DNA of 43,326 nt. Source: Halanaerobium saccharolyticum. Its GTDB lineage: Bacteria; Bacillota; Halanaerobiia; Halanaerobiales; Halanaerobiaceae. The DNA lies in NCBI RefSeq assembly GCF_003053565.1, contig NZ_QAXS01000027.1, positions 1 through 43,326 of the forward strand. Reading direction: 5' to 3'. Positions 2,663 to 11,000 of the stretch are shown here, one piece after another; within the stretch, counting starts at the first letter, position 1; every line of letters starts with the position of its first letter. A program made the translations under genes and the position numbers. The notes below the pieces were generated by a model. That model had not been told where the DNA came from. It did no database searches and was given only the letters and a program-made list of their open reading frames with translations.

Positions 2663-4414
2663 ATGGCCTTTGATGGTATTATGTTATCTGCACTTAAAGA
2701 TAATCTAAAAGAAAAAATTATCGGTGCTCGAATTGAAAAGGCTTATCAAATAGATAAAAAATACTTAATTATTCGCTTAAGAAACAATAATCAGAACCTG
2801 GAACTGTTAATTTCTACCGATCCCCAGGGAGCCAGAATTAATTTAACTGAATTAGATTTTGATTTCCCCTCCTATCCGCCTGATTTCTGCATGATGCTCC
2901 GAAAATATTTAAAAAATTCCTATATTCAGGATATAGTCCAGCCTGAATTTGAAAGAATGGTTAGAATAGACATTGAAAAAAGAGGAAAAAAGTTTTCGCT
3001 AATTGCTGAATTAATGGGTAAATACAGCAATGTAATTCTCTTAGATGATAATGAGATGGTTTTAGATGCTATGAAGAGAATTACCGAAAAACAGAATTCA
3101 GAGCGTCAGCTCTATCCGGGAATTAATTATCAAAAGCCACCGGCACAGGATAAATTAAACCCGCTTAAGCTTGAAAACAGAGAAGAATTTAGACAGGTAA
3201 TTGAAGAGGACTTTTCTCAGGCTGCTTTCCGAGCAGTAATGTATAATTTTAGAGGGATCGGCCCCTATTCGGCCCGCGAAATTGTCTTTAGAGCCGGCAT
3301 AGACCCAGCCGAAAATTATAATAATTTAACTGATTCTGAAAAAAATAAAATTGCTGAGTCAATGATAAAACTTTTTTCTCAATTTAAAAAAGGGAAGTAT
3401 AAACCGATAATTGCAACCGAAGCGGGAGAAGTTGATTATATTTCTGCTTTTATTCTACAGCACAGAAATCCCGAAAAAATAGAAGAATTTGATGACCTTG
3501 ACCGGATGATGGATTATTATTTTAAAGAATTTTTAAAAGACAGGGAACTAAATCGAAACATTAGAGAATTAAACAAAGTAGTTAATACCTATTTAAATAA
3601 AAATCTAAAAAAACAAAAAAAATTAAGAAAACAGCTTGAAGAAAGTAAAGACGCCGAAAAATATAAAAAAATGGGAGAACTTATTACGGCAAATATTTAT
3701 CAGATAGAGCGTGGTGATAAAAAAGCTGTAGTTAAAGACTATTACAGTGAAAAGCAGGAGGAAATTGAAATCAAGCTCGACCCTTCTAAATCTCCTTCTG
3801 ATAATGCCCAAAAATATTTTAAAAAATATAATAAATTGAAAAAAAGTGTAAAACATTTAAAAAGAGAAATTGCAAAACTCAGACATGAGGAAAAATATTT
3901 AAAACAGGTCAGTATGAATATTGAGCAGGCTGAAACTTTAGATGATTTAGAAGAAATCAAGGAAGAATTAAAAGAAGAAAATTATATAAAAAAACAGCAG
4001 CATAACAGAAAAAATAAAGGCAGCAAAAAACTGCCGCCCCGCAAATTCATCTCCAGTGACGGCTATCAGATCCTGGTGGGGAGAAATAACAAACAGAATG
4101 ACAGGTTAACCAAAAAAATTGCCAATGATGGTGATATCTGGCTGCACACCAAAGTTATTGCAGGTTCGCATGTAATAATCAAGAGAGATACCGAAAAAGA
4201 TATTCCTGATAATACTCTTAGTGAAGCAGCAGCAATTGCAGCTTATTTCAGTAAGGCAAGAGAATCAACAAATGTTCCTATAGATTATACACCCGTAGAA
4301 AATGTTAACAAACCAAAAGGAGCAAAACCGGGACTTGTCTATTATGAAAAATACCAGACTATCTATATCGATCCAGCTGACAGAGAATTATTAAAAAAAT
4401 TAGCAGCAGATTAA
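2663..4414 (+). CDS. rqcH: RqcH/NFACT-family ribosome quality control factor
   Basis: RqcH homologues bind stalled 50S subunits carrying peptidyl-tRNA and recruit tRNA-Ala to add alanine tails that mark the chain for degradation. Older annotations call them fibronectin-binding proteins. The 583-aa product has NFACT-N at the start (MAFDGIMLSAL), a helix-hairpin-helix region near YNFRGIGPYSAREI, a long charged coiled coil (about 300-445) and the NFACT-R domain. That domain shows SSDGYQILVGRNNKQND, DIWLHTK and GSHV. The family's Asp-Arg pair (D97/R98 in Bacillus) appears here as Glu97-Arg98. The ATG has a GGAG site. The gene is divergent from remA and overlaps the end of the Lnt-like gene by 4 bases, tail to tail. 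Confidence 0.93.
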   Translation: MAFDGIMLSALKDNLKEKIIGARIEKAYQIDKKYLIIRLRNNNQNLELLISTDPQGARINLTELDFDFPSYPPDFCMMLRKYLKNSYIQDIVQPEFERMVRIDIEKRGKKFSLIAELMGKYSNVILLDDNEMVLDAMKRITEKQNSERQLYPGINYQKPPAQDKLNPLKLENREEFRQVIEEDFSQAAFRAVMYNFRGIGPYSAREIVFRAGIDPAENYNNLTDSEKNKIAESMIKLFSQFKKGKYKPIIATEAGEVDYISAFILQHRNPEKIEEFDDLDRMMDYYFKEFLKDRELNRNIRELNKVVNTYLNKNLKKQKKLRKQLEESKDAEKYKKMGELITANIYQIERGDKKAVVKDYYSEKQEEIEIKLDPSKSPSDNAQKYFKKYNKLKKSVKHLKREIAKLRHEEKYLKQVSMNIEQAETLDDLEEIKEELKEENYIKKQQHNRKNKGSKKLPPRKFISSDGYQILVGRNNKQNDRLTKKIANDGDIWLHTKVIAGSHVIIKRDTEKDIPDNTLSEAAAIAAYFSKARESTNVPIDYTPVENVNKPKGAKPGLVYYEKYQTIYIDPADRELLKKLAAD

Positions 4415-5916
4415 TTTCTGCTGCTCCATTTATTCTTAATTAAAATAATCAGCTTAATGATAACAACTAAGCTAAAGATGGCTGTCAATATTATAATTAT
4501 CCGCAGTGGATATTTTTGATAATAAGCCTGTCCTTTATTTAAAGTTAAATTTACTGTCTGACTTGAATTAACCAGCCTGCTTTTAAAAGCTGTTTTTCCT
4601 TTTTCGGTTATATAACCACTAAAGCCACCTCTGACCACTCTAATTAAGTCAGTGCTGCTTTCTGAAGCTCTAAAAACTGCAGCAGCAAAGCTCAGATTAT
4701 TATAAACCCTGGATTTAAAGTCTCCCTCTGCAGCTGAATGGACAATCAAATTTCTATCCTCAGCCCTATTCTGCTTTCTGTCTACCAGCGGTATAAAAAT
4801 TTCTTCTGCAAAAAGATTAAGATAGGCCAGATCATTTATATTTACTTCAGCAGTTGAAGCTGTTTTTTTGGCTGAGCCTGGATTAAAGTTTAAGTAATCA
4901 GACATCAATCCAGTTACTTCTTCCAAAAAAGGAAAGTTCATTTCTGTCATGATATTACCCTGTTTATTACTCCTTTGAATAACTTCCATTTCTTTTGATA
5001 AGAGAAACAGAGAATTATATACCTCGGATTTATAATTTTTATTTTCAGCAGCTGCTGCACCAAGCTGCAGATATGAAGCTGCTAAATTATTCTCTAATTT
5101 TGCAAAGAGCTGATCTCTGTAATAATTGTTTCTGATCAAATCAAAGCTGAGGCTCTTCTCCGGTGTAAAAATTATTTCATTTTCATTATTTTTAATCAGA
5201 TTCGTTAAATTGGCAATTTCCTTTTCGATTTTTTCGAAATTATTATCAGCTGCAGCGGGCTCAGCTACCAGTAGATCAACTGACTCACTAACCACTTCTT
5301 CCTTAAAATTTATCTTTGCAAAAAAAGGAATTAATGCTAACAAAAGAAATATAAAGAGCAGCGGTATCAGCTTTTTCCAGTCCGGATCCAGATAAATTTT
5401 AACCAGATAAGAAGCGATTAAAACTGCAATAAATGAAACAAGGAAAATTCCGCCATAACCTGCGTACTGAACAATTAAAGAAAAATCACTCTGAGTATAG
5501 GCGAAATAATTAAAGGGATTAAAATTAAAAAATTCAAAACGCAGATACTCTAAAACACTCCAGCTTAAAGCAGCAATGATTGGGCTGTAAGAATATTTGG
5601 GCTGCAAAAATTTATTAATAATAACCCAAAAAACAAGCGGAAGTGCTGATATTAAAAAATAAATAAATAAAATAAATAAGTTAAAAGAAAATGGCATTTT
5701 TAAAGCAAAATTTAGCGGCTGATAAAGCCAGTGAAGTGTAAACACAGAATTCAAAAAACCAACGAGCAGGGCAATTATCAAAGAATGACTGTAATCATGT
5801 TCTCTGACAAGATAAATCAGGGGAATAAAAGCAAACCAGCTTAAAAAAAACAAAGCCGGAAAATAATAGGGTGCTGTAAATAATAAAGATGATAAAATAA
5901 TTAAAATAAATTCCAT
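4411..5916 (-). CDS. lnt: Apolipoprotein N-acyltransferase-like membrane protein lacking the catalytic Cys
   Basis: Lnt adds the third acyl chain to bacterial lipoproteins, using a membrane-embedded nitrilase-type domain with a Glu-Lys-Cys triad. This 501-aa protein has the right layout: several membrane helices in residues 1-200, a nitrilase-like domain (about 210-450) and a final helix (about 472-494). Glu253 (FTPEKSL) and Lys318 (RSNKQG) fit two triad positions. Where the family has ICYE before IF, this protein has LFAEE, so Phe369 replaces the cysteine and Ala370 the tyrosine. The whole protein has no cysteine at all. The reading frame is intact, so it is not a recent wreck. It may be inactive, regulatory, or use other chemistry. 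The ATG has a GGAGG site. It follows the EF-G-like gene's terminator. Confidence 0.75.
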   Translation of the reverse strand: MEFILIILSSLLFTAPYYFPALFFLSWFAFIPLIYLVREHDYSHSLIIALLVGFLNSVFTLHWLYQPLNFALKMPFSFNLFILFIYFLISALPLVFWVIINKFLQPKYSYSPIIAALSWSVLEYLRFEFFNFNPFNYFAYTQSDFSLIVQYAGYGGIFLVSFIAVLIASYLVKIYLDPDWKKLIPLLFIFLLLALIPFFAKINFKEEVVSESVDLLVAEPAAADNNFEKIEKEIANLTNLIKNNENEIIFTPEKSLSFDLIRNNYYRDQLFAKLENNLAASYLQLGAAAAENKNYKSEVYNSLFLLSKEMEVIQRSNKQGNIMTEMNFPFLEEVTGLMSDYLNFNPGSAKKTASTAEVNINDLAYLNLFAEEIFIPLVDRKQNRAEDRNLIVHSAAEGDFKSRVYNNLSFAAAVFRASESSTDLIRVVRGGFSGYITEKGKTAFKSRLVNSSQTVNLTLNKGQAYYQKYPLRIIIILTAIFSLVVIIKLIILIKNKWSSRN

Positions 5917-5954
5917 ATTTCTGCCTCCAGAAATTATTATATACTATAAACTAG

Positions 5955-5980
5955 AAAAAGGCCAGCTGTAATAGCTGGCC
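5955..5980 (-). terminator. Rho-independent terminator after the EF-G-like gene
   Basis: A perfect 8-bp stem (GGCCAGCT with AGCTGGCC, arms 5960-5967 and 5973-5980) with a 5-nt loop is followed on the minus strand by TTTTT. It lies 20 bases after the stop of the EF-G-like gene and before the lnt-like gene, so it separates the two. Confidence 0.85.
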
Positions 5981-5999
5981 TCATTAATTTCTTAAAAAT

Positions 6000-8072
6000 T
6001 TAGGACTTTTCTCTATTAACCTGCTCAATTATTTTATCACTGATATCTCCAGGAACTTTATCATAATGGGAGAATTCCATATCAAAAGAACCATAACCAC
6101 CAGTAATTGACTTTAACTCTACAGCATAGTTAAACATTTCTGCCTGAGGTACCTTTGCTTTAATAATCTGAACTCCATCCTGAGGATCCATTCCTTCAAT
6201 TCTACCTCGCCTTGAATTAAAATCTCCCATGATGTCTCCCATAAAATCCTGAGGCACTGTAACTTTTACAGTCATTATTGGCTCCAAAAGAACAGATCTC
6301 GCCTGAGCTAAAGCCTTTCGAAAGGCTTTAGAAGCTGCAATTTTAAAAGCCATTTCTGAAGAGTCAACATCATGATAGGAGCCATCATATAAAACAACTT
6401 TAAAATCAACTACTGGATAACCTGCGAGAGCTCCATCGTCTTTAGCTTCTACAATTCCTTTTTCAACGGCAGGTATATACTGTCCAGGAATTGCTCCACC
6501 AAAGATTTCTTCTTCAAATTCAAAACCTCTGCCTCGAGGTAGTGGCTCAACCCGCATTAGAACATGTCCGTACTGGCCGCGGCCACCGGACTGCTTTTTG
6601 TATTTTTCTTCAACATCAGCTTTTTTCTGAATGGTTTCCTGATAAGCCACCTTAGGCTCCTGAGTTGTAAAATCAACATCATATTTGCGCTGGCACTCTT
6701 CCTTGATCATAATAAAGTGAATGGTACCCATTCCATCACAAATTAATTCTTTTGTTACTTTATTATAATTAACTTTAAAAGTAGGATCTGAATCACTGTA
6801 GCGCTGTAAAGCAGAAGCCATTTTTTCTTCATCAATACCATCTACTGGATAAGCGGCCCGGCTGTACATTGGTTTTGGAAACTCCAGCTCATGATAATAA
6901 ACATCTGTTTCAGGATCTCGCATAGTGTAAGAGGTTACCAGTTCATCTAATTTGGCAACAGCTCCAATCTCACCTGCAGTCAGATCATCTACATTATCCT
7001 GATCTTTACCATCAAGCTTATAAAGTTTGGTTACTTTAATTTCCTGATCAATATTTGGAATATAAATCATATCGTCACGTTCTAATTTACCGGAAAAAAT
7101 TCTAAAGATCGATAATTTACCGATATAGGGATCAACCATTGTTTTACAGACCTGAGCACTAAATTTGCTCTCTGGCTCAGGAGCTAGAGCCTCTCCTGAT
7201 TTAACCAGATGATCAGAATGAACCTCTGCTGCTGAAGGAAAGATTTTTGTTAAATCATCCAGGAATTTTGCCACCCCACAGTTTTCTATGGCTGAACCTG
7301 CAAACACCGGAACTAACTCCTCACTGGCAACTTCTTCTTCAAATGCTTTTGTTAATTCCTTGATAGTAATTTTTTCCCCATCGAGATATTTAATCATCAG
7401 ATCTTCTTTTAATTCAACTATCTCTTCAGTGAGCTTTAGTTCATAGTCTTCAACTCTTTCCCGTTCTGACTCGGGAACTGGAAAAGCTTTTGGCTTCCCA
7501 TCAACATTTTTATAAAGTTTTTCATCTAATAAATCAATTATCCCTTCAAACTTACCATCTTCATAATAAGGAATAGTAACAATCGCAAAACTATCATCAT
7601 ATGTAGAGCGAAGTTCTTCTACAACTCGATCAAATTCAGCATCTTCCTTATCTACTTTATTAATAAATACAGCCTTTGCCAGGTCGTTTTTTTCAGCTAG
7701 TTCCCAGACATAACCTGTATTAACCTCAATACCGGCCGCAGCATCTACCAAAAGAACTGCACTTTCTACCATTCTCAGGGCACTGATAACCTCACTGCGG
7801 AAGTCTGCATATCCGGGTGTATCAATAAAATGAAATAATTTATTATGCCATTCAAAATTAAAATAACTGTTGTGAACCGAATGTTTGTGTTCTTTTTCAA
7901 CTGCACTAAAGTCGGAATGAGAATTTCCTTTATCAACACTGCCGGGTTCATCAATTACACCTGCATTGTAGAGCAGCATTTCAGACAGTGTTGATTTACC
8001 CGCACCTCCATGTGATATAAAGCAAAAGTTTCTAATGTCTTTACTAGTAATTTTACTCAACTTTTCCACCAA
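6000..8072 (-). CDS. EF-G-like translational GTPase (FusA2 type)
   Basis: This belongs to the second EF-G family, paralogues of translocase EF-G whose precise role is poorly known. The 690-aa protein has all EF-G domains. G1 is HGGAGKST (about 21-28), G3 is DTPGYADF (about 84-91), G4 is NKVD (about 138-141) and G5 is near GSAIENCG. Domain IV follows, with SGGRGQYGHV and GSYHDVDSSEMAF. G1 and the switch region (EKEHKHSVHNS) differ from classical EF-G, and no rpsL, rpsG or tuf lies nearby, so it is not the main translocase. The frame opens with TTG at 8070-8072. GTG at 8067-8069 and TTG at 8058-8060 (after GGTGG) are alternatives, and the last fits family length best. A terminator follows it. 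Confidence 0.88.
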   Translation of the reverse strand: MVEKLSKITSKDIRNFCFISHGGAGKSTLSEMLLYNAGVIDEPGSVDKGNSHSDFSAVEKEHKHSVHNSYFNFEWHNKLFHFIDTPGYADFRSEVISALRMVESAVLLVDAAAGIEVNTGYVWELAEKNDLAKAVFINKVDKEDAEFDRVVEELRSTYDDSFAIVTIPYYEDGKFEGIIDLLDEKLYKNVDGKPKAFPVPESERERVEDYELKLTEEIVELKEDLMIKYLDGEKITIKELTKAFEEEVASEELVPVFAGSAIENCGVAKFLDDLTKIFPSAAEVHSDHLVKSGEALAPEPESKFSAQVCKTMVDPYIGKLSIFRIFSGKLERDDMIYIPNIDQEIKVTKLYKLDGKDQDNVDDLTAGEIGAVAKLDELVTSYTMRDPETDVYYHELEFPKPMYSRAAYPVDGIDEEKMASALQRYSDSDPTFKVNYNKVTKELICDGMGTIHFIMIKEECQRKYDVDFTTQEPKVAYQETIQKKADVEEKYKKQSGGRGQYGHVLMRVEPLPRGRGFEFEEEIFGGAIPGQYIPAVEKGIVEAKDDGALAGYPVVDFKVVLYDGSYHDVDSSEMAFKIAASKAFRKALAQARSVLLEPIMTVKVTVPQDFMGDIMGDFNSRRGRIEGMDPQDGVQIIKAKVPQAEMFNYAVELKSITGGYGSFDMEFSHYDKVPGDISDKIIEQVNREKS

Positions 8073-10493: not shown

Positions 10494-10952
10494 TTAAACA
10501 CCTCTATCTGCGGAAAAAATTAATTGATAAATTAAGATTAAAACTCCAAAAAATATAAATATATCTGCGATATTGATAACCGGAAGCTGGTAAAAATCAA
10601 ATAAATCAAAAGCAATAAAATCAGTAACATAGTGCAGCATTATCCGGTCAATCAAATTTGCTGTACTCCCTCCCAGCAAAAAAATAAGGGCAATTCTGGC
10701 AGAAAGAGTATCTGATAATTCTTTTCTGTAAAGATAAACTATAAATATCAAAAATAATATTGTAACCAAAATAAAAAAGCTCCGCTGACCGCTTAAAATT
10801 CCGAAGGCAGCTCCCCTATTTTTAACAAAAGTTAAATATAAATAATCTTTGATAATAAATACTTTTTTAAATTGCACAAAATTACTCCGAATTAGAAATT
10901 TACTCAGCTGGTCAATCAAAATTATTAATGCAGAAAAAATAACAATATACAT
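10494..10952 (-). CDS. lspA: Lipoprotein signal peptidase (signal peptidase II)
   Basis: LspA cleaves the signal peptide from diacylglyceryl-modified prolipoproteins in the inner membrane. I chose the ATG at 10950-10952 (152 aa) because GGAG lies 8 bases before it and the protein then starts like the family, in the first membrane helix (MYIVIFSALIILIDQLSK). A longer frame to 11000 would overlap the promoter. Four membrane helices are visible. The conserved blocks are VKNRGAAFGI, NLIDRI and the PVINIADIFIF region; the aspartates of NLIDR and NIAD are the catalytic pair. It is translated into rluD. With the Lnt-like protein it puts two lipoprotein-processing family members in this window. Confidence 0.93.
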   Translation of the reverse strand: MYIVIFSALIILIDQLSKFLIRSNFVQFKKVFIIKDYLYLTFVKNRGAAFGILSGQRSFFILVTILFLIFIVYLYRKELSDTLSARIALIFLLGGSTANLIDRIMLHYVTDFIAFDLFDFYQLPVINIADIFIFFGVLILIYQLIFSADRGV

Positions 10953-10971
10953 AGGCTCAACTCCAAATATA

Positions 10972-11000
10972 ATTTTAACATATAGAAATAATTTAGACAA
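10972..11000 (-). promoter_or_regulatory. Probable promoter for lspA-rluD
   Basis: On the minus strand TTGTCT (10995-11000) and TAAAAT (10972-10977) are 17 bases apart. The -10 box lies 20 bases before the chosen lspA start. Confidence 0.5.

Follow-up and report, generated by a model that had tools for sequence, protein, structure and literature searches.

A cysteine-less Lnt homologue conserved across Halanaerobium as a probable pseudoenzyme

Lnt is the membrane enzyme from which bacterial lipoproteins normally receive their third fatty acid. The window, i.e., the whole stretch of 43,326 nucleotides of Halanaerobium saccharolyticum that was analysed (contig NZ_QAXS01000027.1, positions 1 to 43,326), encodes an Lnt homologue on the minus strand whose translation contains no cysteine at all and whose frame of 501 codons is intact (Table 1). 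Both features had been read from the sequence in an original prediction, and both were confirmed on the open reading frame. The original prediction offered three readings, namely a non-catalytic lipoprotein-binding protein, a changed mechanism of acyl transfer, or the disappearance of lipoprotein N-acylation from this lineage. The comparison of the gene with its homologues in Halanaerobium and in related genomes makes it highly probable that the protein is a conserved pseudoenzyme throughout the genus, in which almost all genomes have retained the gene.

Table 1. Features of the cysteine-less lnt-like locus and its surroundings, in window coordinates
Feature	Position	Strand	Remarks
Cys-less Lnt homologue (pseudo-Lnt)	4411..5916	-	ATG start, TAA stop, 501 codons / 501 aa
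Membrane domain, aa 1-205	5302..5916	-	unusually conserved; holds 59/92 invariant residues of the Cys-less clade
Degenerate nitrilase-like domain, aa 206-445, active site erased	4582..5301	-	not recognised by PF00795
Codons of Ala370 (Cys387 position) and Glu371 (next residue, Tyr388 in E. coli)	4804..4809	-	counted from ORF start 5916
Leader conserved among orthologues, with a TATATAAT-like -10 and, close to the ATG, a TGGAGG ribosome-binding site	5917..5957	-	
Likely EF-G terminator: hairpin plus T-run	5958..5982	-	just upstream of the lnt-like gene; hairpin also in orthologues
EF-G-like GTPase	6000..8072	-	fixed upstream neighbour
fbpA/NFACT-like gene	2663..4414	+	fixed downstream neighbour, convergent, 4 bp overlap with the end of the lnt-like gene; named by resemblance
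lspA (prolipoprotein signal peptidase)	10494..11000	-	same gene cluster; PF01252 at 10515-10931

Identity of the protein and state of its active site

Homology of the protein to Lnt, expected from its fold and membrane layout, was borne out by two family models and by alignment to proteins of known structure. The PF20154 model (LNT_N) matches the window protein with 71.3 bits (E=1.4e-19), against a Pfam cut-off of 27.1 bits, which was also passed by the three orthologues that were scanned and by all orthologues in the genome search. TIGR00546 (lnt) covers nearly its whole profile on the window protein with 117.1 bits, under the curated equivalog cut-off of 132.9 bits. When 59 genomes of the class were searched with this model, full-length Cys-less copies scored 69-116 bits and complete normal Lnts 195-298 bits, with two normal Lnts being reported in pieces (181 and 203 bits combined). 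The sequences of Lnt crystal structures align with the window protein nearly end to end (phmmer 1.5e-9; clade profile 1.4e-6), including a C-terminal helix at about aa 473-491. An AlphaFold2 model of the protein, made with three sequences, had a mean pLDDT of 36.9, too low for interpretation.

The catalytic half gives a different picture. PF00795 found no match in the window protein or in the three scanned orthologues (cut-off 23.2 bits), and the only signal, 14.6 bits in G006, stayed below the threshold, versus 36-68 bits for the Lnts that carry the cysteine (Cys-Lnts). Despite this miss, profile alignment still shows homology of the window protein in the nitrilase region.

Three alignment methods (phmmer, MAFFT and hhalign) placed the Cys387 column at Ala370 of the window protein ('NLFAEEIF' versus 'AICYEII' or 'TVICSEIL'), which corrects the predicted position, Phe369, by one residue. 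Ten full-length orthologues were available, from ten genomes and with the window copy included, while an eleventh genome holds a fragment located at the end of a contig; in the ten, this column has five Ala, four Ser and one Thr. The prediction that Glu253 and Lys318 fit Lnt held for the window copy, where they align with E267 and K335. However, position 253 is Glu in 7 of the 10 orthologues (Q or A in the other three) and position 318 is Lys in 6 (Q in four), so these residues are not strictly kept by selection. As the equivalent of Glu389 (E372) is also retained in 9/10, some species still have part of the pocket. In contrast, the equivalents of E343 and W237 and the Trp of the NEAW motif are gone in all ten, and the N-E-A-W-F block, described as degenerate in the original prediction, indeed reads A-E-G-D-F in the window protein. 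On the membrane side, Arg126 corresponds to the essential Arg139 of E. coli. Considering the columns that are invariant in normal Lnts, the Cys-less clade has kept 14/17 in the membrane domain, but no more than 11/37 in the nitrilase domain, a significant difference (Fisher p=0.0004).

A sequencing or assembly error that removed the Cys, or the existence of close orthologues with the Cys, had been named as findings that would dispose of the case, and neither was encountered. Nine independent orthologous genes, each from another genome, also have no Cys, and the change spans dozens of positions, so that an error at this codon is rejected as an explanation, with a negligible chance of being correct.

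Descent of the gene and a second Lnt

The ten orthologues and the eleventh fragment, found in H. kushneri and H. saccharolyticum among others, share one slot with the order lspA - rluD-like - flavodiiron-like - EF-G - lnt-like - (convergent) fbpA-like - gmk-like - coaBC-like, in which some of the neighbours are named by resemblance of sequence. The Cys-less orthologues form a single clade (support 100/100), and its sister sequences in the tree are the normal Cys-Lnts of G013 and G012, two further genera in this family, which occupy the same EF-G/lnt/fbpA slot. Tree and gene order identify the Cys-less gene as the family's original lnt, inherited vertically. It has remained in the vicinity of lspA and lgt (lspA ... 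lnt ... lgt), where unrelated genes are present as well. Its leader (hairpin, TATATAAT-like -10 and GGAGG) is recognisable in 10/10 Cys-less orthologues. The conserved -10 and GGAGG that follow the likely EF-G terminator (window 5917-5982) suggest that the lnt-like gene may have a promoter of its own.

The search for a second, Cys-containing Lnt, proposed together with the original prediction, was positive in the window's own genome, where such a gene with a full site is found (G000:C1:45090-46475; VICSEIL, NQTNEAWF). Of the 12 Halanaerobium genomes, 11 encode a Cys-Lnt whose Cys-Glu-Lys site is intact, and in no genome seen is it adjacent to the Cys-less gene. A loss of lipoprotein N-acylation is not supported for the window's genome, which has a canonical Cys-Lnt, but is possible for the twelfth genome (see below). 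The Halanaerobium Cys-Lnts group (100/97) with an Lnt from G018, which belongs to a different family of the order, and a duplication within the genus was rejected, since the AU test excluded trees that unite all Halanaerobium Lnts in one clade (p=0.00013). Tree and AU test together imply that it was the resident gene that lost the active site and that the site-bearing second Lnt is not a within-genus duplicate; the second copy would have originated either by transfer or by retention from an older duplication. In G018, the gene run is LptFG - LptA-like - lspA - lgt - lnt (L060:2-6460), and several Halanaerobium Cys-Lnts sit in the order LptFG-LptA-lnt. As a separate observation, this places all three lipoprotein-maturation genes of G018 directly behind LPS-export genes.

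One genome (G008), complete as a single contig of 2,309,262 bases, holds only the Cys-less copy, and searches at the family, protein and CN-hydrolase level found no Cys-Lnt in it. In the relatives, the Cys-Lnt site has the order PFOR - mgtC - lnt - neighbours, and at the same site in G008 (L080:13198-13561) PFOR is followed by a gap of 0.36 kb and then by the same neighbours, with mgtC and the Cys-Lnt missing. Both lgt and lspA are present, each less than 10 kb from the Cys-less gene, and the triad positions of the Cys-less protein read Glu-Lys-Ser. Lit was considered as a replacement acyltransferase and discarded, as PF07314 had no match in any of the 12 Halanaerobium genomes. Since G008 has no catalytic Lnt that could be assisted, the role of the Cys-less protein cannot depend on Lnt alone.

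Constraint on the membrane domain and possible roles

Within the Cys-less clade, pairwise dN/dS spans 0.10-0.27 in the membrane domain and 0.13-0.54 in the nitrilase domain, and a maximum-likelihood codon fit gave omega values of 0.106 and 0.122, respectively. Given that synonymous sites are partly saturated, the contrast between the domains rests on the protein comparison. There, the usual balance between the domains is reversed, with the Cys-less clade averaging 65/44% identity (membrane/nitrilase) versus 50/57% in the Halanaerobium Cys-Lnts and 50/56% in 30 other Lnts. The difference between the two domains (membrane minus nitrilase) is +11 to +31 points in the Cys-less proteins against a baseline of -17 to +7, with no overlap, and the per-site entropy shift between the domains is significant (p=8e-11). 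The nitrilase domain of the Cys-less clade is still full-length and under some constraint.

That selection keeps the frame, as had been supposed, is borne out by the low dN/dS, by ten intact orthologues and by the conserved leader and synteny. These data also bear on the reading that the gene was recently orphaned, is functionless and is heading toward loss, which would fit with the existence of a substitute Lnt and with a nitrilase domain that evolves faster than in normal Lnts. However, the gene is intact in ten genomes at a mean pairwise identity of about 52%, with 92 invariant residues and dN/dS values mostly of 0.1-0.3, and the -10, the ribosome-binding site and the gene order are conserved. 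The old copy is not decaying, and we consider this reading extremely unlikely.

The loss of catalytic residues throughout the genus, combined with a constraint that has moved to the membrane domain, supports the non-catalytic part of the first of the three original options. A changed mechanism of acyl transfer is disfavoured, because the clade shares no candidate nucleophile, base or lysine, but would be conceivable for single species that carry Ser in place of the Cys. An acyltransferase that is still active and uses another nucleophile, e.g., this Ser in four species, or different chemistry would be in line with Ser or Thr in 5/10 orthologues and with the Glu-Lys-Ser triad of G008, where no other Lnt exists, and the E. 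coli C387S variant forms an acyl-enzyme, though without detectable Lnt activity (PMC3850990). On the other hand, the remaining five orthologues, that of the window included, have Ala at this position, the residues lost in all ten are accompanied by losses of the K335 and E267 equivalents in some, and the constraint has shifted off the catalytic domain. Therefore, activity by such a route appears very unlikely.

The explanation that we favour, and which we regard as probable when taken as a whole, is that the resident lnt is now a pseudoenzyme, that the second Lnt is the catalytic one and that the membrane domain has been retained for a role with lipids or lipoproteins. Under this explanation, the Cys-less protein would have lost acyl transfer, while its eight-helix membrane domain and lateral cleft would bind phospholipid or diacylated lipoprotein, and bound lipoproteins might be held, presented or handed over at the stage of Lgt, LspA, Lnt or sorting. 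We infer the link to lipoproteins from homology and gene neighbourhood, and such a binding or hand-over role is a tentative proposal, somewhat less probable than its opposite. Alternatively, the protein could support another membrane protein.

A more specific proposal is that the Cys-less protein is an accessory subunit in a heteromer with the Cys-Lnt, the former serving membrane and substrate-handling functions and the latter catalysis. The C-terminal transmembrane helix H8 is missing in 7 of the 10 intact Halanaerobium Cys-Lnts (L053:5091-6476 and those in L033, L038, L040, L042, L047 and L051), which end right after the nitrilase domain, whereas it is present in 10/10 Cys-less proteins and in 30/30 other Lnts. 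Behind some of the H8-less genes, the next gene begins too near to leave room for a lost piece, and behind the others no H8-like sequence was found. A two-homologue arrangement also has a parallel in Streptomyces scabies, where Lnt2 is needed for full N-acylation and cannot replace Lnt1 (PMC3850990). Yet, the Cys-less protein persists in G008 without any catalytic Lnt, the Cys-Lnts of G002, G007 and G010 keep H8, and the two genes are neighbours in none of the genomes seen. Moreover, a complementary rate shift in the Cys-Lnt was looked for and not supported, as its balance between membrane and nitrilase domains is like that of ordinary Lnts. A heteromer thus seems unlikely. In its fullest form, Lnt would be split over two unlinked proteins of different origin, a catalytic subunit that lacks H8 in most species and a dead, membrane-conserved partner for binding or delivery of lipoproteins, of which the G008 lineage would have kept the handling subunit only. 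The absence of H8 in most Cys-Lnts is the main reason for retaining this two-protein reading, which we hold to be distinctly doubtful.

Comparison with known Lnt homologues and significance

Compared with Lnt itself (TIGR00546; PDB 5N6L, 5XHQ, 5VRH), the window protein shares near-full-length homology, with an N-terminal membrane domain, a periplasmic nitrilase-like domain and the C-terminal helix, as well as the E267 and K335 equivalents, the essential Arg and the ancestral gene slot. It differs in having no equivalent of Cys387, E343, W237 or the NEAW Trp, in its sub-equivalog score and in having its strongest selection in the membrane domain. A precedent is BCG_2279c of M. bovis BCG, a second homologue with a C387S change beside a working Lnt, whose loss it does not compensate (PMC3850990). 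Unlike the window protein, BCG_2279c is actinobacterial, keeps 5/7 essential residues and corresponds to two ORFs in M. tuberculosis, and a site erased throughout a clade is not shown there (PMC3850990). Lnt2 of S. scabies, another precedent, is likewise a second homologue with a subsidiary role, but it keeps the essential residue that BCG_2279c has lost (PMC3850990). The glycine N-acyltransferase AatD is an Lnt homologue whose function has changed (PMC7943197), although it retains E217, K278, E286 and C325, in contrast to the lost catalytic residues of the window protein.

The literature found to link Halanaerobium with Lnt is a single survey of outer-membraned Firmicutes by Antunes et al. 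(PMC5007114), the relevant passages of which report LolA homologues in all Halanaerobiales analysed, correlate LolA with Lnt homologues in this order and do not mention the missing active site. In our search, PF03548 (LolA) had no match over the cut-off in 12/12 Halanaerobium genomes and, given the presence reported in those passages, the Halanaerobium LolA homologue may be very divergent. Elsewhere in the class, two near-complete genomes (G039 and G055) gave no LNT_N match although close relatives have Lnt, which may reflect a complete loss of Lnt. A low-scoring candidate for a second degenerate Lnt in G035 (L084:4139-5674) was dismissed, since it carries a Cys (ISICRDMDF) and belongs to another type of membrane protein with a nitrilase-type domain, an extra and distant one beside the normal Lnt of that genome.

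The presence of an Lnt homologue is commonly taken as a sign of triacylated lipoproteins. As the only homologue in at least one complete genome, G008, has no active site, the presence of a homologue does not equal the presence of the activity. Halanaerobium also constitutes a natural experiment, in which selection has kept a non-catalytic Lnt membrane domain, alongside a catalytic copy in most species but on its own in one, and which makes a standalone function of the Lnt membrane domain directly testable.
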